A DNA stretch of 49,345 bases from an uncultured bacterium. Lineage in GTDB: Bacteria; Cyanobacteriota; Vampirovibrionia; Gastranaerophilales; Gastranaerophilaceae. The notes under the pieces were generated by a model. That model searched no databases. It was not told where the DNA came from and was given only the letters and a program-made list of their open reading frames with translations. Of this stretch, positions 36,298 through 45,206 are shown piece by piece. Location: assembly GCA_902777605.1 (NCBI GenBank), contig CACYUI010000022.1:1-49345 (forward strand), read 5' to 3'. Both the position numbers and the translations under genes were made by a program. Positions within the stretch are counted from its first letter, which is position 1. Every line of letters starts with the position of its first letter.

Positions 36298-37065
36298 TTA
36301 ACCCTTTTCTTCTTTGTTTACTTCTGTTAGTAGGAATGAGCGAAGTTTTCTCTCTATTAAAACAGGACTCTCTCCGGCTTGAATAGACAGAACTCCTTCT
36401 AATATCATTTCTTTGTATAAAAATACTTTTTGGTATACAAATTTAATTCTTGTACCTAAAGGTATCATAACCAAGTTTGCCGCAAACAAACCATAAATAG
36501 TTGCAACGAAGGCAACTGCAATCCCTGCACCAAGCTTTGAAGGGTCTGACAAGTTCTGCATAACCTGAATCAACCCCATTACGGCACCAATGATACCTAA
36601 AGTTGGAGAATATCCGCCGAATGATTCATATACCTTTGCTGCATTATGAACATGGGCTTCCTGTTGACTTATTTGATTTTCCATCATTTCTCTTACTAAT
36701 GTAGGATCAGAACCGTCAGCTACAGCTCCCAAGCCTAATGTTAACAATGGGTCTGAAGCATTATTTGCTTCTTTTTCTAACGCAATAATACCTTCTTTTC
36801 TTGCTTTAGTAGCAAACCCGCCAATTTCTGTAATTAATGCTTCGAAATCAGCTTTCGGCGGCATAAATACATCTTTCAACATTTTGATTGCAGACATAAG
36901 CGTATCCATAGGAAAGCTCAACACAATTGCACCTGTTGTACCACCCAAAACAATAAAAGCAGCCGTAATTTGCAAAAGTTGGCCTAAATTACCACCTTCC
37001 ATGGCTTGGCCTGTTAGAATAAAACCTATACCAAGGAACATACCTATTACTGCAAAAATATCCAT
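36298..37065 (-). CDS. motA: Flagellar stator protein MotA
   Basis: A 255-residue stator subunit with four membrane helices. Visible features are the cytoplasmic-loop ATKARKEGIIALE (Arg and Glu that contact FliG), the GLGAVADGSDPTLVREMME segment, and GGYSPTLGIIGAVMGLIQVMQNL with the conserved proline and the final helix IYGLFAANLVMIPLGTRIK. GGAG precedes the ATG. Together with MotB it forms a proton-type stator that drives the flagellum encoded in the opposite orientation nearby. Confidence 0.94.
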   Translation of the reverse strand: MDIFAVIGMFLGIGFILTGQAMEGGNLGQLLQITAAFIVLGGTTGAIVLSFPMDTLMSAIKMLKDVFMPPKADFEALITEIGGFATKARKEGIIALEKEANNASDPLLTLGLGAVADGSDPTLVREMMENQISQQEAHVHNAAKVYESFGGYSPTLGIIGAVMGLIQVMQNLSDPSKLGAGIAVAFVATIYGLFAANLVMIPLGTRIKFVYQKVFLYKEMILEGVLSIQAGESPVLIERKLRSFLLTEVNKEEKG

Positions 37066-37823
37066 AATTATCTCCGAAGTGTATACTATTCTATGTATAT
37101 TAAACTATAGATTTATATTTGTTAAATCCTTTAAATAAAGGATTATTATTTTATTTTTAAGATAATTTTATTCACTAAAATACAATATTTCCTCCTAAAT
37201 ATATATTTTGGTGAATTGAGTTTGTTGTTGGGCAAGTATGTTATGCTACACTCTTCCCTCTCCTAACAGGAGAGGGTAAGGGTGAGGTGTTGAATATTTA
37301 TACAGTAAAAAATCTCAAATAGTGTTTTTTGTATGTACTTTCTTTGTTTCTTTTTTAGCAATCAAAAAGAGTCACAAAGAAAGTACCAAAGAAAAGAAAG
37401 AAAAAACATGCAATCGTTTTCTATGCCCTTACGGGCATTTTTCTTGTTCGGCAAAGCCGAATCCCTTACTCGACCTATGGTTACCTTCGGTAACACGGTC
37501 GAGGTTATAATACGAACGACTTTAGCAAAAAAATCAAAGCATACCGTAATGAGCAATCAATGTTTGTGAGGCAACAACAGAGCGAGCATTGTTTGAGCGA
37601 AGCGAGTTTGCGAGCTTGGGGCGAACAATACAATTGATTAGCGAATGAAGGTCGAGCTTTGAGAGTTTCTTTCGCCACTTTCTTTACGGTTAAAGAAAGT
37701 GGCATAAAATCTGATTTTCTAAGTTTTTGCGCCAAAATATATAAAAAGCTTTATTTTGTTTTTTCAAAAAACACGGAAAATCTGTTTGTGATATTATAGT
37801 ATTACACTGGAGGAGTATAAATT
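37066..37823. repeat. 758-base non-coding region: REP-like repeat plus a large palindromic element
   Basis: Near motA an inverted repeat AATCCTTT/AAAGGATT (37124-37143) occurs. A REP-like repeat follows (CCCTCTCCT/AGGAGAGGG, 37256-37276, then TAAGGGTGAGGT). From 37335 to 37743 there is a series of hairpins: GTACTTTCTTTG/CAAAGAAAGTAC (37335-37346, 37375-37386), TTCGGC/GCCGAA (37447-37461), CTCGACC/GGTCGAG enclosing GTTACC/GGTAAC (37469-37503) and GCCACTTTCTTT/AAAGAAAGTGGC (37674-37685, 37692-37703). The end resembles 97-120. Short reading frames inside it cross the palindromes and are not credible genes. GGAGGAG at about 37811 is the bioB ribosome site. Confidence 0.65.
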
Positions 37824-38762
37824 ATGGAACTTAAGGAAAATATGACAAAAGAAGATTATCTAAAGCTTTATGAATTGCCTTTAGAGGATTTAATTGATAT
37901 ATCGCATAAAATTACATTAGAAAATTTTGATAATACGGTAGAAGCTTGCAGTATTATTAGTGCAAAAACAGGCGAATGTTCTGAAAACTGCAAGTATTGT
38001 GCTCAATCTAAACACAATCATGCAGAAATTGAATGCCATCCTCTACTTGATGTTGAAACTGTTAAAAAAGCCGCTATAAGCGCAAAAGAAAACGGTGCTA
38101 CTCGTTTTTGCATAGTAACTTCAGGCAGAGTACCAACAGGGAAAGATTTTGAAAAAATATTGGAAATGATAAGAGAAGTTGCTGCAATTCCTGACATTCA
38201 TTGCTGCGCTTCTTTGGGGCTCCTATCCGAAGAGCAAGTTAAACAAATTAAAGAAGCAGGTGTTGAGAGATTTAATCACAACATTAACACATCAGAAAAT
38301 TATCACTCAAAAATTTGTACAACTCATAATTTCCAAGACAGAGTTAATACGGTTAAAATGATTCAAAAATACGGAATGGAAGCATGCTGTGGTGTAATAA
38401 TCGGTATGGGTGAATCAAGAGAAGACAGAGTTGACATGGCATTGTCTTTAAAGGAACTTAATCCAAAAACTGTGCCTATAAACTTCTTAAATCCAATCAA
38501 AGGCACACCATTAGAAGGTTTTGAAGATAAAATAGATGAAGAAGAAATTTTAAAAACCATTTGTATATTTAGAATAATACTTCCAAAAGCTCTTCTAAGA
38601 TATGCGGGCGGAAGAACAACAAGACTAAGCAAATTTAACCAAAAAATGGGTATAATTGCAGGTATAAACTCTGTTCTTGTAGGCAATTATCTTACTACCT
38701 GTGGTTCTAAAGCTGATGAAGACAAACAAATGCTAAGCGAATTAGATTTAGTTATGGCATAG
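37824..38762 (+). CDS. bioB: Biotin synthase
   Basis: A radical-SAM enzyme that inserts sulfur into dethiobiotin. The SAM-cluster motif is ECSENCKYC (C52, C56, C59). CCASLGLL, ERFNHNINTSENYH and PINFLNPIKGTPLE are typical, as is the Arg-rich YAGGRTTRL near the auxiliary 2Fe-2S site. The 312-residue length is usual. A strong GGAGGAG ribosome site precedes it. No other bio gene lies in the window, so the pathway may be split or limited to salvage of dethiobiotin. Confidence 0.95.
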   Translation: MELKENMTKEDYLKLYELPLEDLIDISHKITLENFDNTVEACSIISAKTGECSENCKYCAQSKHNHAEIECHPLLDVETVKKAAISAKENGATRFCIVTSGRVPTGKDFEKILEMIREVAAIPDIHCCASLGLLSEEQVKQIKEAGVERFNHNINTSENYHSKICTTHNFQDRVNTVKMIQKYGMEACCGVIIGMGESREDRVDMALSLKELNPKTVPINFLNPIKGTPLEGFEDKIDEEEILKTICIFRIILPKALLRYAGGRTTRLSKFNQKMGIIAGINSVLVGNYLTTCGSKADEDKQMLSELDLVMA

Positions 38763-38778
38763 ACTTAAAATACATAAC

Positions 38779-38808
38779 AAAGGCGAAGCTAAATTTAGCT
38801 TCGACTTT
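38779..38808. terminator. Bidirectional terminator between bioB and the convergent small gene
   Basis: CGAAGCTAAATTTAGCTTCG (38784-38803) is a perfect palindrome flanked by AAAGG and ACTTTT, which can extend the stem after one mismatch and give short U-runs on both strands. It sits between two convergent stop codons. Confidence 0.75.
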
Positions 38809-38827
38809 TGCATACTTAAAATTTATA

Positions 38828-39238
38828 TTATGCTTCATAGCATATATATTCGCCATTAAAACTTCTTTTGGATTCTTTTGCCGCATATTCATCTATCTGT
38901 GCAACAACATCTTTTGCACCTTGAGTAGAAACCGTATTTATTAATTTTGCGGCATAATTTAACAACTGCATTTCTCTACGAGTCCATTTTGATGTACCAT
39001 CCAATGAATTGCATAAGTTTATTGTTTGACTATATTGGTCTGTAGTACCACCGGAAAAAGATTTAACAATTTTATTTAAACCTGCCATTATTTGTTTTTC
39101 TTTTTCTTTGCTACTTGGCTCTGCCGCTTTAGGAGTTTGAATTTTTTGCGGTTTCGTCTTATATGGTATTTTTAATGGCACTTTCGGTTTTTTATGATAA
39201 ACCGATGAGGGATACTCTACATTAAAATCGTTACCCAT
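38828..39238 (-). CDS. Small hypothetical protein
   Basis: A 136-residue protein of unknown function. The first 50 residues are Lys/Pro-rich (several KxP motifs) and probably disordered. The rest is helical (KQIMAGLNKIVKSF, then WTRREMQLLNYAAKLINTV and AKDVVAQIDEYAAK). No signal peptide or membrane segment is visible. AAGGAT lies just before the ATG, and the gene has its own upstream region and a shared terminator, which support it being real. Confidence 0.6.
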   Translation of the reverse strand: MGNDFNVEYPSSVYHKKPKVPLKIPYKTKPQKIQTPKAAEPSSKEKEKQIMAGLNKIVKSFSGGTTDQYSQTINLCNSLDGTSKWTRREMQLLNYAAKLINTVSTQGAKDVVAQIDEYAAKESKRSFNGEYICYEA

Positions 39239-39356
39239 AATATATCCTTTCTTTTGTTATATATCTTATATATATAAAGTATTTAGCAATTGCAAAAATG
39301 CTTTTTTAAAAGGTTTTGTTAATATTTGTAAACTAAATTAAAAAGCTATTGGTATG

Positions 39357-39386
39357 TTGACAAATTTATTGGTTCGTGAATATAAT
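39357..39386 (+). promoter_or_regulatory. Consensus sigma-70 promoter of the leader-attenuator unit
   Basis: TTGACA (39357-39362), an 18-base spacer and TATAAT (39381-39386): both hexamers are perfect. The predicted start at about 39393 is immediately before the AGGAAA ribosome site of the leader peptide. The remainder of 39239-39356 is AT-rich and shows no feature except the upstream region of the minus-strand small gene. Confidence 0.85.
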
Positions 39387-39405
39387 TTTTTGTTAGGAAA
39401 TATAA

Positions 39406-39474
39406 ATGAATAAAAATATATTAAAAAAATTAATATGCTGCAGCTGTAAGCTTCGATGTCGGAACTTACTTTGA
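39406..39474 (+). CDS. Cysteine-rich leader peptide (22 residues) of an attenuator
   Basis: A short frame with its own AGGAAA (39395-39400), 5 bases before the ATG. It encodes MNKNILKKL, then I-C-C-S-C-K-L-R-C, then RNLL and TGA. Four of 22 codons are cysteine (positions 11, 12, 14, 18). The last codons (CGG AAC TTA) are themselves arm 1 of the downstream antiterminator helix, so ribosome position on this frame should control which helix forms. The alternatives are a chance frame or a small functional peptide. Confidence 0.6.
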   Translation: MNKNILKKLICCSCKLRCRNLL

Positions 39475-39549
39475 TTTTGCATGCAGTTTAAAATATGAAT
39501 ATATAAGAATAAGTTCCTTGGAAGTTTTTGGCAGGGAACTTATTTTTTT
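39461..39549 (+). terminator. Attenuator with mutually exclusive antiterminator and terminator
   Basis: Arm 1 GGAACTTA (39461-39468), arm 2 TAAGTTCC (39510-39517), arm 3 GGAACTTATT (39535-39544). Arms 2 and 3 form a 13-bp terminator stem (39508-39520 with 39532-39544) followed by five T. Arm 1 can pair with arm 2 over 8 bp and so prevent the terminator. The T-run ends directly at the GGAGGA ribosome site of the membrane-protein gene, so termination here would silence only that gene. Confidence 0.75.
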
Positions 39550-39558
39550 GGAGGAATA

Positions 39559-41046
39559 ATGAAAATTTATAATAATGTACAAACGCCCGGCATAGCATCA
39601 AAAGGTGTATTAGATGGTACTATCACGACAGCATTAAGAACATTAGATAAAAATCCAATGGTGAATGCAGTTGGAATAGACCTTGTTGCTATGGTTGGGC
39701 CAAGAACTTATGTTGATACAAAAGAAAGAAACAAGTATGCCGGAGCTGAAACATTTTTTCGCGAATTTACAGGGACGCTAACAGTCTGCTTAAGTGCGAG
39801 CTATTTTGCAAAATGGATTGCAGCTTGGATCAACAATGTTATTGCGAAAAAAAATAAGATAAACCCAAATTCTTGGTTTTCTAACAGCAGCATAGAATTT
39901 CTAAAAGAAGCAAATATCGGTGCTAAAAACACTAAAGATTTTGTTAAAAACATTGTCAATACAATTCCTAATTTGAAAGAGCCTGATGAATGGATAGATG
40001 AAAAAAATTGGTTTGAATACAAGTGGGATAATGAAAAATATAAAAATATTCATCAAAAAATTACTAATAAAGATTCTTTGATAAACATTTTAACTGAAAT
40101 AATTGAAGATAAAGAACTTTCTTTGTCAGACAAAGATAAACTTCTTAAAATTCTGAATCTCAGAACTATCAATATGATTAACACTGATAATGTTAATTTA
40201 AAAATAAATAACACAGAACATTCAACTTCTGTTTTTAATCTTTTGCGTGATACTGTTGATATTGGAAGAGATGTATTCTCAAAAACAATTGCAGAACAAG
40301 ATATATTATTAAAAAAATTAGTTCGTATAAATAAAGTAAAAAGTATTGGTGCATTGAGCTTAGCATCTATTCTTGGGCTTGCAAATCAATATATAAACAG
40401 AAAAATAACAGAAAAAAGAACCGGCACTAAAGGTTTTGTAGGCGACATAAACTATAAAGACAGAGTTGAGAATAAAGAATCATATAAAGACAAAACCTTC
40501 AAATTTAGAATGGAAAAAGTTATGGCGAGCCTTGGTATGGTAGCAATGGCTATTGCCGTTATGGGAATAAAATCACCAAAAGATTTTGTTAAAAAATTGG
40601 AATTTATCGGTCCCGTAAACAGCGGAAATGTTATAAAAACAGTATATGCCTCAACTCTTGTCGGAAGATTTTTAGCATCAGATAATAAAGACGAATTGAG
40701 AGAAACCGTAACACGAGACTATTTTGGTTTCTTGAATTGGCTTGTCTTAGGCGGATTTACGGCTAAAGGTGTTGCAAATATTCTTGATCCGAAGCGAAAA
40801 AATTTGTTCAATGGCAATGTAAACGGAAAAGGAATTAAAAATTGGTTAAATAATATATCTTTAAAATCGCACAACGAAATTGCCGTAAATGGAAAAAGTT
40901 TTGCAAGGGAAAATATGTGGAAACTTAATATAGCGCAGGTTTCAGGACTTGCATATTCCATAATAGCGTTGGGAATACTTCTTCCTAAGCTTAATATATG
41001 GCTTACCAATAAAAAACAAAATAAATCCAAAACTTTAAGCAAATAA
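39559..41046 (+). CDS. Unknown multi-pass membrane protein under attenuator control
   Basis: A 495-residue protein with about five hydrophobic segments: near 73-95 (LTVCLSASYFAKWIAAWINNVIA), IGALSLASILGLANQYI, VMASLGMVAMAIAVMGI, FLNWLVLGGFTAKGVANIL and a C-terminal SGLAYSIIALGILLPKL. A long charged region (about 100-260) separates the first from the rest. It has no signal peptide and no family I recognise, and no cysteine-metabolism motif. A strong GGAGGA ribosome site lies 3 bases before the ATG. murC follows from its own promoter. Confidence 0.75.
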   Translation: MKIYNNVQTPGIASKGVLDGTITTALRTLDKNPMVNAVGIDLVAMVGPRTYVDTKERNKYAGAETFFREFTGTLTVCLSASYFAKWIAAWINNVIAKKNKINPNSWFSNSSIEFLKEANIGAKNTKDFVKNIVNTIPNLKEPDEWIDEKNWFEYKWDNEKYKNIHQKITNKDSLINILTEIIEDKELSLSDKDKLLKILNLRTINMINTDNVNLKINNTEHSTSVFNLLRDTVDIGRDVFSKTIAEQDILLKKLVRINKVKSIGALSLASILGLANQYINRKITEKRTGTKGFVGDINYKDRVENKESYKDKTFKFRMEKVMASLGMVAMAIAVMGIKSPKDFVKKLEFIGPVNSGNVIKTVYASTLVGRFLASDNKDELRETVTRDYFGFLNWLVLGGFTAKGVANILDPKRKNLFNGNVNGKGIKNWLNNISLKSHNEIAVNGKSFARENMWKLNIAQVSGLAYSIIALGILLPKLNIWLTNKKQNKSKTLSK

Positions 41047-41053
41047 GAAATGA

Positions 41054-41082
41054 TTGTAAACAAGTTCTCTTTTTAATATAAT
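41054..41082 (+). promoter_or_regulatory. Sigma-70 promoter of murC
   Basis: TTGTAA, a 17-base spacer and a perfect TATAAT (41077-41082), about 50 bases before the murC ATG and just after the stop of the membrane-protein gene. Confidence 0.7.
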
Positions 41083-41131
41083 TGTTTTTGAACTGTTATA
41101 CAGTTTAAGAATTTTGGCTTGGAGAGAAACA

Positions 41132-42475
41132 ATGGGAAAATATCATTTTATAGCAATTGGCGGAATTGGGATGAGCGGACTTGCAAAATATTTGCTTGAA
41201 GATGGTCACACTGTATCAGGTTCTGATATTGCTGAATCAAAATATATAGACAAATTAAAAAAACTTGGCGCAATAGTAAGTATAGGACATAGTGCGGAGA
41301 ATGTTCCTAATGATGCAACCATTGTCATTAGCACTGCCATTCGTGAAAACAATCCTGAACTTATTAGAGCAAAAGAATTAGGGTTAAAAATTTATCATCG
41401 TTCTGATTTACTTAAAGAAATTGCTCAAAATGCACAAGAAAACGGAAAATGTTTTATAGGTTTTTCCGGCACTCACGGAAAAACTACAACAAGCGGACTG
41501 GCTTCCTATGTTCTTGAAATGGCAAAACTTGAACCATCTTTTGTAGATGGAGGAATTCTTCCTGATATTAATACAAATGCTCAGCACAAGGGTGGAAAAC
41601 ATTTTATTGCCGAACTTGATGAAAGTGACGGAACAATAGTCAAATATTCCCCTGATATTTTGATTATAAATAACTTAGAAGAAGACCACATGGATTTTTA
41701 TAAAAATGGCATGCCGGATTTAATAAAAACATTTGAAAATGCTATTTCTAAAGCTAAAAAAGTTATTGTTAATATTGATAACGAAGGTATTAAGAATCTA
41801 AGAGGTAGTTTTATCACATTTGGATTAAATAAAGCTGATTATACTGCTAAAAATATTAGTTATAACTCTGAAGGTACGACTTTTGAAATATATCACAATG
41901 ATAAATTTCTTACAGATATAAAAATACAACTTGCAGGTGTTCATAATGTTTATAATACTCTAGCAGTAGTTGCTGCGTTACATGAGGCAGAAGTTGATAT
42001 TAACAAAATAAAAAAATATTTCTACGATTTTACAGGTATGGGCAGAAGATTTCAAAAAGTATGCGAGATAAATGGTTTTACTGTATATGACGATTATGCC
42101 CATCATCCTACTGAAATAAAGGCAACACTTGATGCTGCGGCTCTAAAATTTGGCAAAGAAAAAATTGTTGCGGTATTTCAGCCCCACAGATACACACGCC
42201 TAAAAAGTCTGTGGAATGAATTTAAAAACGCTTTTGGTAATGCAGGCAGAATCATTGTTACTGATGTATATGCAGCATCCGAAGATTCTATAGAAGGAAT
42301 CAGCGGCAAAAACTTTGCCTCAGAACTTAAAGGTTCCGAATATTTGTCAGGAAATATGCAAAAAGTGTCTGCTAAACTGTTACCAACACTTAAAAGTGGT
42401 GATATCGTAATAGGTTTAGGGGCTGGAACAATTACAGCGCTTGGAAAAGAATTAGAAAAAATTTCTCTTTCTTAA
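41132..42475 (+). CDS. murC: UDP-N-acetylmuramate-L-alanine ligase
   Basis: MurC adds L-Ala to UDP-MurNAc, the first stem-peptide step. The N-terminal Rossmann motif GIGGIGMSGLAKYLL, the ATP loop SGTHGKTTTSG (P-loop about 113-119), NNLEEDHMDFY and YDDYAHHPTEIKATL are all present, with FQPHRYTRLK near the C-terminal domain. GGAGAG 5 bases before the ATG at 41132 sets the start (447 residues); a TTG further upstream at 41114 is open but lies before the ribosome site. murB and ddl are downstream, interrupted by an unknown membrane gene. Confidence 0.96.
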   Translation: MGKYHFIAIGGIGMSGLAKYLLEDGHTVSGSDIAESKYIDKLKKLGAIVSIGHSAENVPNDATIVISTAIRENNPELIRAKELGLKIYHRSDLLKEIAQNAQENGKCFIGFSGTHGKTTTSGLASYVLEMAKLEPSFVDGGILPDINTNAQHKGGKHFIAELDESDGTIVKYSPDILIINNLEEDHMDFYKNGMPDLIKTFENAISKAKKVIVNIDNEGIKNLRGSFITFGLNKADYTAKNISYNSEGTTFEIYHNDKFLTDIKIQLAGVHNVYNTLAVVAALHEAEVDINKIKKYFYDFTGMGRRFQKVCEINGFTVYDDYAHHPTEIKATLDAAALKFGKEKIVAVFQPHRYTRLKSLWNEFKNAFGNAGRIIVTDVYAASEDSIEGISGKNFASELKGSEYLSGNMQKVSAKLLPTLKSGDIVIGLGAGTITALGKELEKISLS

Positions 42476-42574
42476 TATACATCATATTTTATTTATGTAT
42501 TATTAATTTGTAAGCGCAAATTATTTTTTGTTCTGTGTTTAGTATTAAAAAGTATTATACAAAGTGCTAATTTT

Positions 42575-44197
42575 ATGCAAAATCAAATTCAACCATACAA
42601 TTATACACACATCGTTTTTAGGGATAATAAAAATAACAAAAATATTATTCCTGAAATAGCACTGCCAAATACTGATATTAACAACCAAATTAACAAAGAA
42701 AAAATGGGAGTAGATTGGACATCGGGATTAGGACTTACTGTTTTAGCAATTATTGGTGGTTCACTAATGTTTTCAAGAGGGGTTCAAAAAAATTCTTCAA
42801 AGTACTTGAATAAGATGAAAGAATTTTTTGAAAACAAATTGGAATTATCTGGATTTGAAGATTCTAATAAAAAAGCAAAATTTTATGAATATTCGATAAG
42901 AAGGATAAATTCTTTTTTACACAAGTCTGAAAGTATAAATAATATTACCTCTTTAAAAGATATTTTATTTATGAAACTTATGTATAAAACAAAACCCACT
43001 CAAAAAATACATAATTCAATCACAAAATATTTTGAGGGTTTGTCTAGAAAAACTGTTGAAAAATCTTACGAAAAAGCAGGAAAGTATTTTAAAAAAATGA
43101 ATACTTTATTTGACAATCTTGATAAAAAAATATTAGAAAATAATCCTGAAGAAATTTTTGAGTACGATAAAGAGAAATTATCAAAGAGAGAACTGATAGA
43201 ACGAGCTAAAGACCATCGGGAGATAGCATCTTTATTTATATACAACTTTATTGACAAAACATCACAAAACCAAAGATATGAATATATGGATAAACTTACA
43301 TCTACACTATATTCGAAGTTTTGGGATGCTTCTTTTAAAGATTTTTGGTCAAAAGATAATAAATTTAAAAAAAAGGAAATGTGGCAAACTTTTATTGCTG
43401 CTGAACAGATAAAGGGTGATAAGACACATCTAGTAAAAAATATAAATTATGCAAGAGAACTTCTTGCATATACTGATAGTTATATTACAGATTTAATAAA
43501 TAATAATATTAATGAACTTTCTACCTTAATTCCACTTACAGATAAAAAAGGATACGAGATTGTAGAAAAAATCAAGTATTTGGCAGAAACTCCTCAAGCA
43601 ATGGTTGATAATAAAAAGTATATATTGGCAGAACTTGAAAAACTTAAGACTCATAAAATTTCAACAGTCGTTGACCAAGAAATTATTAAAGTTCAAGAAG
43701 AGTATAAGGAGAACTGTATTGATACTATCAAACGACAAATAGAAGACAGAGGAAATGGAATTCTTCAAGATGTGATATCCATATATAATACAATTGCCCC
43801 TTATGAACTGGCAAAATCTGGAGCAAGAAATGCACTAAAGCAAACAGTTGAGCAATTTGACGAGTCCGTAAAACTGGAATCAATCGAATTATTTGATAAA
43901 GTGAGGGATTTAAAACTCGGTTCTGCTCCTACAGATGTACTCACAATATTAGTTTCATTTATTATGATATCATTTGGTCTTGGCAACGCTAAAGATAATA
44001 GCGAACGAACTTCTATTATGCTAAAATCAGGGATTCCTATTGCAGGAGCGATTGCAACATCCATAATTTCAGCTACCAAATTGGTATCAGGAGGAAAATC
44101 TTTAGCACTCGGGTTCCTATCAGGTATTATACTAAATAAACTTGGTAATTACGCTGATAAAGGATTAAAACATTATCAAGCAAAAAGTAAGCCTTAA
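42575..44197 (+). CDS. Unknown membrane protein inserted between murC and murB
   Basis: A 540-residue protein: one N-terminal membrane segment (LGLTVLAIIGGSLMFSRGV, about 52-70), a long helical/coiled charged region of about 370 residues, then a C-terminal cluster of three hydrophobic segments (VLTILVSFIMISFGLG, IPIAGAIATSIISATKLVSG, LALGFLSGIILNKL). No clear Shine-Dalgarno precedes the ATG. It resembles the 39559 protein in general build (charged helical middle, C-terminal membrane cluster) but I see no convincing sequence identity. A role at the division site is suggested only by position. Confidence 0.7.
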   Translation: MQNQIQPYNYTHIVFRDNKNNKNIIPEIALPNTDINNQINKEKMGVDWTSGLGLTVLAIIGGSLMFSRGVQKNSSKYLNKMKEFFENKLELSGFEDSNKKAKFYEYSIRRINSFLHKSESINNITSLKDILFMKLMYKTKPTQKIHNSITKYFEGLSRKTVEKSYEKAGKYFKKMNTLFDNLDKKILENNPEEIFEYDKEKLSKRELIERAKDHREIASLFIYNFIDKTSQNQRYEYMDKLTSTLYSKFWDASFKDFWSKDNKFKKKEMWQTFIAAEQIKGDKTHLVKNINYARELLAYTDSYITDLINNNINELSTLIPLTDKKGYEIVEKIKYLAETPQAMVDNKKYILAELEKLKTHKISTVVDQEIIKVQEEYKENCIDTIKRQIEDRGNGILQDVISIYNTIAPYELAKSGARNALKQTVEQFDESVKLESIELFDKVRDLKLGSAPTDVLTILVSFIMISFGLGNAKDNSERTSIMLKSGIPIAGAIATSIISATKLVSGGKSLALGFLSGIILNKLGNYADKGLKHYQAKSKP

Positions 44198-44235
44198 AAT
44201 ATATTCTTTTGATTTTTTATTATTAAAACTTGTGC

Positions 44236-44277
44236 TATAATTTAGTGGGGAAGAAGCGAATACTTCGCTTTATTTTT
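44236..44277 (+). promoter_or_regulatory. Extended -10 promoter and leader hairpin of murB
   Basis: TGCTATAAT gives an extended -10 (TATAAT at 44236-44241). About 6 bases after the predicted start, AAGCGAA-TAC-TTCGCTT (44254-44270) forms a 7-bp hairpin followed by TATTTTT, so it is either a 5' mRNA-stabilising hairpin or a weak early terminator in front of murB-ddl-ftsQ-hemW. Confidence 0.5.
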
Positions 44278-44297
44278 AGAAAAAGAGAGTTTTTCAA

Positions 44298-45206
44298 TTG
44301 ATAGTAAAAGAGAATTTTGAAATAAAAAATTTGACAACATATAAAATCGGCGGAAAAGTTACAAGAGTTTATTTTCCCGAAAATCAATCTGAATTCACTG
44401 AGCTTTTAAGAACTATAGAGAGTTATATAGTCTTGGGAAGTTGTTCAAATATTTTGTTCTCATCAGCAGGTTATGATGGTAATGTTATAATGACAAGTGA
44501 GTTAAAACAGTTCGAAATCAGAGGTACAAAAGTTTTTGCCTCTGCAGGCGTAAAAGGACCTTTTCTTGCTCAGAAAACTGCAGAGGAAGGACTTAGCGGT
44601 TTTGAATTTATGATAGGATTTCCCGGATCCATAGGCGGAGATATTTGCATGAATGCAGGTGCGCATGGTCAATGTATTTCTGACAATTTAGTTCAAGTTT
44701 CTGTTTTTAATCGTGAAACAGGCGAGGTTGAATACAAGCAAAAAAGTGAATTAGATTTTAGTTACAGGCATTCCTGCTTAAGTGACGGGAAATACATATT
44801 ACTTCATGCAGAATTTGATTTAAAAAGAGCACCTGAAGAAGAGATAAAATCATTAATAAATAGAAATTTGGAGTTTAGAAAATCTATTCAGCCATCACTT
44901 GCAACTCCAAATGCCGGAAGTGTTTTCAAGAACCCGGAAAATGATTCTGCTGGAAGGCTTTTAGATAAAGCCGGAGTGAAGTCTTTTGACTTGCCAAGAG
45001 TTCAGGTTTGGAACAATCATGCAAATTTTATTGTGAACAAAGGAGAAGCTACATCGGAAGATGTTTTAACATTAATGGTTATGATGTATAATGCAGTAAA
45101 GAACCAGTATACAATTGAGCTTAGACCTGAAATAATATACATCGGGGATAAAACTAAAAAAGAGGAAGAATTATGGAATATCTTGTACCAAAAGAATCAA
45201 AAATAG
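44298..45206 (+). CDS. murB: UDP-N-acetylenolpyruvoylglucosamine reductase
   Basis: MurB is the FAD enzyme that makes UDP-MurNAc. TTYKIGG, the FAD loop LGSCSNIL, GFEFMIGFPGSIGGDICMNAGAHG, SYRHS (R157), the catalytic serine in NAGSVFKNP (S208) and the late Glu in LRPEIIYIG (E278) are all in place, following the shorter (type II) MurB layout. The start is TTG, 8 bases after AAGAGAG; no ATG is nearer the conserved N-terminus. It overlaps ddl by 34 bases. Confidence 0.95.
   Translation: MIVKENFEIKNLTTYKIGGKVTRVYFPENQSEFTELLRTIESYIVLGSCSNILFSSAGYDGNVIMTSELKQFEIRGTKVFASAGVKGPFLAQKTAEEGLSGFEFMIGFPGSIGGDICMNAGAHGQCISDNLVQVSVFNRETGEVEYKQKSELDFSYRHSCLSDGKYILLHAEFDLKRAPEEEIKSLINRNLEFRKSIQPSLATPNAGSVFKNPENDSAGRLLDKAGVKSFDLPRVQVWNNHANFIVNKGEATSEDVLTLMVMMYNAVKNQYTIELRPEIIYIGDKTKKEEELWNILYQKNQK

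Follow-up and report, generated by a model that had tools for sequence, protein, structure and literature searches.

A gene for a 495-residue helical protein in an uncultured member of the Gastranaerophilales appears to be controlled by a ribosome-mediated transcription attenuator of the trp/his type, which would measure Cys-tRNA here and Ser-tRNA in most relatives and would govern a single-gene unit; we put the probability of this reading at about 0.87. Gene and leader lie in the window, by which we mean the whole stretch of 49,345 nucleotides that was analysed. The structural features present are those of trp/his-type attenuators: a leader with tandem codons, covarying and mutually exclusive pairings of arms A and B (antiterminator) and of arms B and C (terminator), a stem and U-tract before the gene, and a codon run placed to free arm A. 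The layout is that of textbook attenuation, yet no recognised amino-acid gene is its target, and versions of one homologous element would measure either of two metabolically linked amino acids.

Leader and arms in the window

Feature coordinates are collected in Table 1. The initial annotation had described a perfect TTGACA-N18-TATAAT promoter, a 22-codon frame with its own ribosome site and four Cys codons, and three arms, and each of these is borne out by the sequence. The hexamers at 39357-39362 and 39381-39386, separated by an 18-nt spacer, match the sigma-70-type consensus without mismatch and formed the sole 12/12 match in a promoter scan of 37000-45000; the frame comprises 22 codons and TGA, with Cys at codons 11, 12, 14 and 18, the last of these (39457-39459) being an extra Cys codon past the regulatory run; and the arms are GGAACTTA (39461-39468), TAAGTTCC (39510-39517) and GGAACTTATT (39535-39544). 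The Shine-Dalgarno sequence of the next gene does follow directly on the terminator, as had been described, with the ATG at 39559, and the T tract is likewise present, although it counts seven T and not the five given earlier.

A region additional to the three arms was found in the form of GTAAG at the third Cys codon, which can pair with CTTAC and thereby hide arm A; this pair would correspond to the protector 1:2 of classical attenuators. By folding and alignment, the box TTTTGCATGCAGTTTAA after the stop codon is able to pair with the start of the run or leader, which would give a longer protector. RNAfold of 39393-39560 gave -37.2 kcal/mol (z = -4.1), with no shuffle equally stable, and when the downstream part was dinucleotide-shuffled 300 times and searched for arms in the same way, 0/300 matched the window score. 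A search of Rfam, including its leader families and T-boxes, gave no match to the window at the gathering threshold, and permissive E-values gave weak matches at chance level.

Table 1. Features of the proposed attenuator and the regulated gene in the window
Feature	Position	Strand	Basis or remark
Promoter TTGACA-N18-TATAAT	39357..39386	+	12/12 match
AGGA, Shine-Dalgarno-like, of leader frame	39396..39399	+	sequence
Leader ORF MNKNILKKLICCSCKLRCRNLL, then stop	39406..39474	+	sequence; homologous leaders
Regulatory run TGC TGC AGC TGT (Cys 11, 12, 14)	39436..39447	+	run position conserved among homologues
Protector hairpin (region 1:2), GTAAG 39446-39450 with CTTAC 39465-39469, TTCG/CGGA inside	39446..39469	+	RNAfold; alignment
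Arm A (region 2) GGAACTTACT, 5' side of antiterminator	39461..39470	+	
Conserved box TTTTGCATGCAGTTTAA past leader stop codon	39475..39491	+	TTTTGATGTGTAGTTTTT in Ser type
Arm B (region 3) AATAAGTTCC, common to antiterminator and terminator	39508..39517	+	
Arm C (region 4) GGAACTTATT, 3' side of terminator stem	39535..39544	+	
U-tract of intrinsic terminator, 7 T	39543..39549	+	sequence
Shine-Dalgarno GGAGGA of regulated gene, abutting U-tract	39550..39555	+	sequence
Regulated gene, 495 aa, helical, probably membrane, family P0001	39559..41046	+	one Cys in 495

Distribution of the leader family

Upstream regions of homologues in the order Gastranaerophilales were reduced to 114 distinct ones, and a leader was called where a frame with an ATG start held at least 3 Ser or at least 3 Cys within six codons. 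By this definition 110 of the 114 regions carry a leader (69 Ser, 41 Cys), with no run of any residue other than Ser or Cys in the run's place among the 110, and three arms with a U-tract were found in 108 of the 110 by a search that required a U-rich tail. A residue-blind search that started from the arms likewise yielded Ser or Cys runs, its few other calls being overlapping frames or cases where Ser or Cys shared the highest count in the six-codon window with another residue. The initial annotation had named homologous loci without the frame or without arm pairing as evidence that would speak against its trp-type attenuation reading; the run leader is instead kept in nearly all regions, all arms in nearly all leaders, and the arms change together, so that leaders, arm sets and covariation support that reading. 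Its choice of Cys as the sensed amino acid fits the window and would not extend to most relatives, which carry Ser runs.

Departures from the pattern include a Cys leader with a GTG start (L055), a leader with just two adjacent Cys (L080), a stop codon ahead of the Cys run (L092) and a locus without a leader that has retained its promoter, TTGACA...TATACT (L012); the last three are natural losses. The arm search returned no arms at L054 and L114. A covariance model of the element gave 48 matches at E ≤ 1e-5 in 65 genomes, two of them copies cut by contig ends (weaker matches, E 1e-4 to 0.1, were left out), and because all 48 lie upstream of the P0001 family the element serves a single gene family. 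No Ser or Cys leader was found within 400 nt upstream of the cysS, cysK-like, serS, serA-like and serine-dehydratase-like genes of the window's genome.

An exact TTGACA precedes the leader in 104 of the 110 homologues and a Shine-Dalgarno-like 4-mer in 40 of the 110. The leader ATG lies at most 13 nt past the end of the -10 box in 53 of the 108 loci with a recognised promoter, often 6-9 nt past it (for example L032 1-1030; window 39357-39408; L025, L042). With the ATG so close to the -10 box, the mRNA would have almost no untranslated stretch ahead of the leader frame, and about half of the leaders may be leaderless in this sense.

Both types occur together, with one copy of each, in eight genomes. 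On the tree two changes of leader label suffice, the Ser type forming one large clade and one branch. At L005 (2997-3108), within the window's own clade, the leader reads GSSSSSGYRNLF and then stop; this is a second, independent change from a Cys to a Ser run, with the arms retained. A second family of the order has Cys leaders as well (L229, L230), and a third may have them: at about 870-1170 of L238 (family f2), a leader with poly-Gln followed by CC..C lies upstream of a distant homologue, together with arms of complementary sequence (GCTTGCG/CGCAAGC) and a hairpin that resembles a terminator.

Covariation, spacing and predicted folds

Covariation was scored on a plain sequence-based alignment of 46 loci. 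The antiterminator A:B was paired in 87% of cells, with 27 double changes in 5 of 8 pairs, and the terminator B:C in 93% of cells, with 41 double changes in 8 of 8 pairs; sliding the partner by one column, as a control, lowered pairing to 51-66%. In 98% of loci the score of the real arms lay beyond the 95th percentile of the shuffled sequences. Arm sets found include GGAACTT/AAGTTCC, GGGACTT/AAGTCCC, GAGACTT/AAGTCTC, AAGAACTT/AAGTTCTT and CAGAGCTT/GAGCTCTG, and the protector pair of the alignment reads CAAGT/ACTTG in the Ser type and GTAAGT/ACTTAC in the Cys type. In one Cys subgroup the arms are shifted one nucleotide later against the reading frame, and the arms are therefore kept as RNA and not as peptide. 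The RNA switch is, as judged by sequence comparison, under selection.

The run ends at a closely constrained distance from arm A (median 11 nt, quartiles 8-12, sd 3.1), whereas the spacing between arm A and the stop codon varies more widely (sd 8.4). The front edge of a stalled ribosome lies about 10-12 nt past the A site, and this combination of spacings is what the front edge of a ribosome stalled at the run would require. In predicted folds, A:B formed in 104/108 loci with a ribosome placed at the run and B:C in 108/108 with a ribosome at the stop; with no ribosome, arm A was held upstream in 69/108 and paired as A:B instead in 38; the protector is predicted in the window too. These folds show feasibility and are partly self-testing, the arms having been preselected for complementarity; the alignment covariation and the shuffle control are free of that preselection and constitute the tests.

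Codon choice in the run

Serine in Ser runs is written TCN in 373 of 377 codons (TCC 207, TCA 141) and AGY in 4 of 377; among the 196 Ser codons of the window's genes, used for comparison, 49 are AGY (p = 1e-20) and 13 are TCC. TCN and AGY specify the same residue through different tRNAs. By this choice of codons the leader evidently reads codons and not peptide. The initial annotation had allowed for induction by agents that stall ribosomes as well as by amino-acid shortage; because TCN is used and AGY, with the same residue and another tRNA, is avoided, such agents appear less likely as the inducer than shortage of the amino acid.

Cys occurs inside the run window in 21 of the 69 Ser leaders, pointing to one shared physiological signal for Ser and Cys. 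In Bacillus subtilis starved of serine, translation slows at all four UCN codons and at Cys codons while AGC and AGU are spared, and serine is the precursor of cysteine (PMC3862929); this may be why the run alternates between Ser and Cys only. Pairing of TCCTCC runs with the Shine-Dalgarno sequence was considered as a general rule and rejected, as Cys leaders hold no TCCTCC.

Codon avoidance in the regulated genes

The composition of the regulated genes was compared with that of neighbouring genes on the same contigs, in 34 comparisons for the Ser type and 12 for the Cys type. Ser-type genes hold 26.0 TCN codons per 1000 against 47.5 in their neighbours, with the lower value in 33/34 comparisons, and do not differ in AGY (15.6 against 16.8); their Cys content is 5.3 against 13.8 per 1000. 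Cys-type genes hold 2.6 Cys codons per 1000 against 16.3 (lower in 12/12) and do not differ in TCN (47.5 against 42.3). Ser-type genes are also poorer in TCN than the leaderless (core) paralogues of the same genome in 16/16 cases. A comparison of the two types across all 20 residues shows the largest divergence for Cys and Ser (ratios 3.12 and 0.64; others 0.79-1.30), a contrast that rests on few independent events, namely the two leader switches on the tree. In the window's genome, Cys and Ser residues number 1 and 29 in the Cys-type protein and 5 and 16 in its Ser-type paralogue (L032). The regulated gene avoids the codons that its leader would measure, and we infer that it is expressed while Ser or Cys is short; proteins of biosynthetic pathways are known to be sparing in their cognate amino acid (PMC4209129).

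The regulated protein and its paralogues

The initial annotation had not recognised an amino-acid gene in the regulated frame, and database searches agree: sequence searches with P0001 against Pfam, NCBIfam, PHROGs, PADLOC and PDB gave nothing above chance. The Ser-type paralogue gave a single weak PHROG match (phrog_19264, E 7e-4), to which no function is assigned, and members of A2 gave weak, scattered Pfam matches. The structure model (pLDDT 86.7, pTM 0.85) is nearly all helical, and the protein holds two to four moderately hydrophobic segments, so that a membrane protein is plausible. Foldseek gave best E-values of 0.26 (PDB) and 0.05 (viral) and no convincing fold, though matches this weak leave a known fold possible. 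The best VIA-align Z of 5.2 was rejected as a fold match, since for a helical protein it means merely a common arrangement.

Homologues were found in 65/65 genomes of the genus sample, distant paralogues counted; the close form is present in 79/287 genomes of the family, the attenuated copy thus occurring in about a quarter. Among the matches listed, none came from outside the order Gastranaerophilales: the named ones belong to Candidatus Gastranaerophilales (Melainabacteria), and the others come from rumen and gut assemblies. A leaderless tandem pair of distant paralogues with about 30% identity (G000:C16:18948-21922, that is L051; L259-L278) is near universal in the family and has ordinary Ser and Cys content. 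No leaders were seen before such distant tandem paralogues, including L231, L232 and L240-L242, and these are possible constitutive counterparts of the attenuated gene.

No neighbour gene was conserved across 80 loci. A link to biotin genes was considered, with a bioB-like gene (37824-38762) upstream of the window copy, bioB by L003 and L057, and a bioD-like gene (L115 7142-7813) upstream of the Ser-type copy of the same genome, and was rejected as not general across loci. Elsewhere in the window, between murC-like and murB-like genes, a 540-aa frame (42575-44197) without an NCBIfam match resembles many lineage-specific helical proteins of these genomes. In the window's genome, a protein that starts GPSSSHTAG (G000:C7:48661-49227, L255) was matched by the C-terminal part of a phosphoglycerate dehydrogenase model; it resembles L-serine dehydratase, and serine may be a substrate for these bacteria.

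Proposed mechanism and alternatives

In the mechanism that we propose, the strong promoter would start transcription and a ribosome would follow on the leader. With charged tRNA-Cys plentiful, the ribosome at the stop codon would cover arm A, or arm A would be left in the 1:2 hairpin; with arm A unavailable, the B:C terminator would form and transcription would end near 39549. With charged tRNA-Cys short, the ribosome would wait at the Cys run with its front edge just before arm A, and the free arm A would pair with arm B once the latter is made, blocking the terminator and allowing the 495-aa gene to be transcribed. If no ribosome is present, the protector hairpin would hold arm A and the terminator would form. 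The regulated gene would be adapted to translation during shortage by its avoidance of the sensed codons. Both the inducer and the direction of the switch (stalling giving read-through, completion or no translation giving termination) are proposed by analogy.

Strong terminators close to promoters exist, and each element of the leader region is common singly; it is nonetheless extremely improbable that the region is no more than a common promoter followed by a read-through terminator, with the leader frame and arm A there by chance, in view of the conservation in about 108 diverged loci, the covariation, the constant run-to-arm spacing and the shuffle controls. That the leader works as a nascent-chain arrest peptide or as a drug sensor in the manner of ErmCL or TnaC, with Ser or Cys acting in the exit tunnel, we consider very unlikely. 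Drug-inducible leaders are likewise short leaders beside alternative hairpins, and a uORF of that kind lies upstream of hflX (PMC8632094), but the run here can consist entirely of Ser or entirely of Cys, with the remaining peptide highly variable, Ser is written with TCN and almost never with AGY although the peptide would be identical, and the downstream gene is no resistance gene and avoids the same codons. The low TCN or Cys of the regulated genes could reflect inherited history or the composition of membrane proteins instead of starvation adaptation, as might be argued from the two label changes on the tree and from L005, where the leader has switched to Ser and the protein composition is still of the Cys type and not Ser-poor. 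We regard this as unlikely, because homologues within a single family show the effect in reciprocal form, and because it concerns TCN alone among Ser codons (AGY 16.9 against 17.8, p = 0.37), singles out Cys and Ser among the 20 residues, and holds down to about 50% protein identity and against both the neighbours and the core paralogues of the same genomes.

What the attenuator is for admits two readings. The regulated protein would, on one of them, be the starvation-time copy of the leaderless paralogue pair: the tandem pair would be made in good times, and an extra copy poor in Ser (TCN) or Cys would be switched on by the matching attenuator. We hold this isoform exchange tentatively, at somewhat less than even odds. 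On the other, the attenuator is as described and the protein, as an uptake or peptide-salvage membrane protein, serves Ser or Cys supply directly and is not a paralogue substitute; this too is a serious possibility that falls short of an even chance. Amino-acid attenuators mostly control supply genes, low cognate use is known for biosynthetic pathways (PMC4209129), and the helical model with its hydrophobic segments would suit a supply protein, whereas the protein has no transporter or enzyme match by sequence or fold, the leaderless pair is near universal and of ordinary Ser and Cys content, and the neighbour genes are not conserved.

The reciprocal avoidance of sensed codons would be a purely genomic sign of a gene's expression condition: it would indicate that the protein is made during a shortage of Ser or Cys, and even which of the serine tRNAs run low, and selective tRNA charging becomes testable from sequence. 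The avoidance would point to limitation of Ser or Cys as something that these uncultured gut bacteria meet repeatedly, and the element offers a first handle on a protein family present in several copies in most of their genomes. If isoform exchange is true, attenuation serves, outside amino-acid metabolism, to replace a structural or membrane protein by a version that spares the amino acid in question, with leaders that have switched between Ser and Cys in evolution and with both kinds able to be held by one genome.

Comparison with known systems

In the literature searched, the coverage of which was incomplete, we found no description of a Gastranaerophilales or Melainabacteria leader of this kind or of a serine-run transcription attenuator. 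The attenuators of E. coli trp and S. Typhimurium his (PMC1183508) share with the present element a translated leader with tandem codons, an antiterminator 2:3, a terminator 3:4 with U-tract, and a selective choice of the sensitive codons; their protector 1:2 has a predicted counterpart in the window and in 69 of 108 loci. Unlike them, the present element would sense Cys or Ser and has as its single target a gene with no recognised role in metabolism; within one homologous element the sensed amino acid has shifted in the course of evolution, and in about half of the cases the leader begins no more than 13 nt past the end of the -10 box.

The window element does not belong with the Cys attenuators described for cysS or for actinobacterial cys operons: both gene and lineage differ and, in contrast to the actinobacterial leaders, it has a clear terminator. 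The uORFC-8-2 upstream of cysS in Rhodobacterales (PMC8632094) is alike in its tandem Cys codons in a uORF, its intrinsic terminator and its proposed Cys-tRNA sensing, but it belongs to another phylum and has cysS as target, and Ser versions are not described there. The leaders of actinobacterial cys/cbs operons (PMC1262725) are likewise short frames in which runs of Cys codons lie close to the stop, but they have no recognisable terminator and precede genes of cysteine metabolism.

In SinR, the serine-codon sensor of B. subtilis (PMC3862929), UCN codons likewise read out Ser shortage, Cys codons slow too and AGY is spared. There the sensing codons lie in the regulator's own coding sequence, without an RNA switch, whereas the present system would use a dedicated leader and attenuator, and its target gene avoids the sensed codons. 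That avoidance recalls the low cognate bias of biosynthetic pathways (PMC4209129), in which genes induced by shortage are poor in the amino acid concerned; here the protein lies outside recognised biosynthetic pathways, and the avoided codons match those of the leader, TCN and not AGY.
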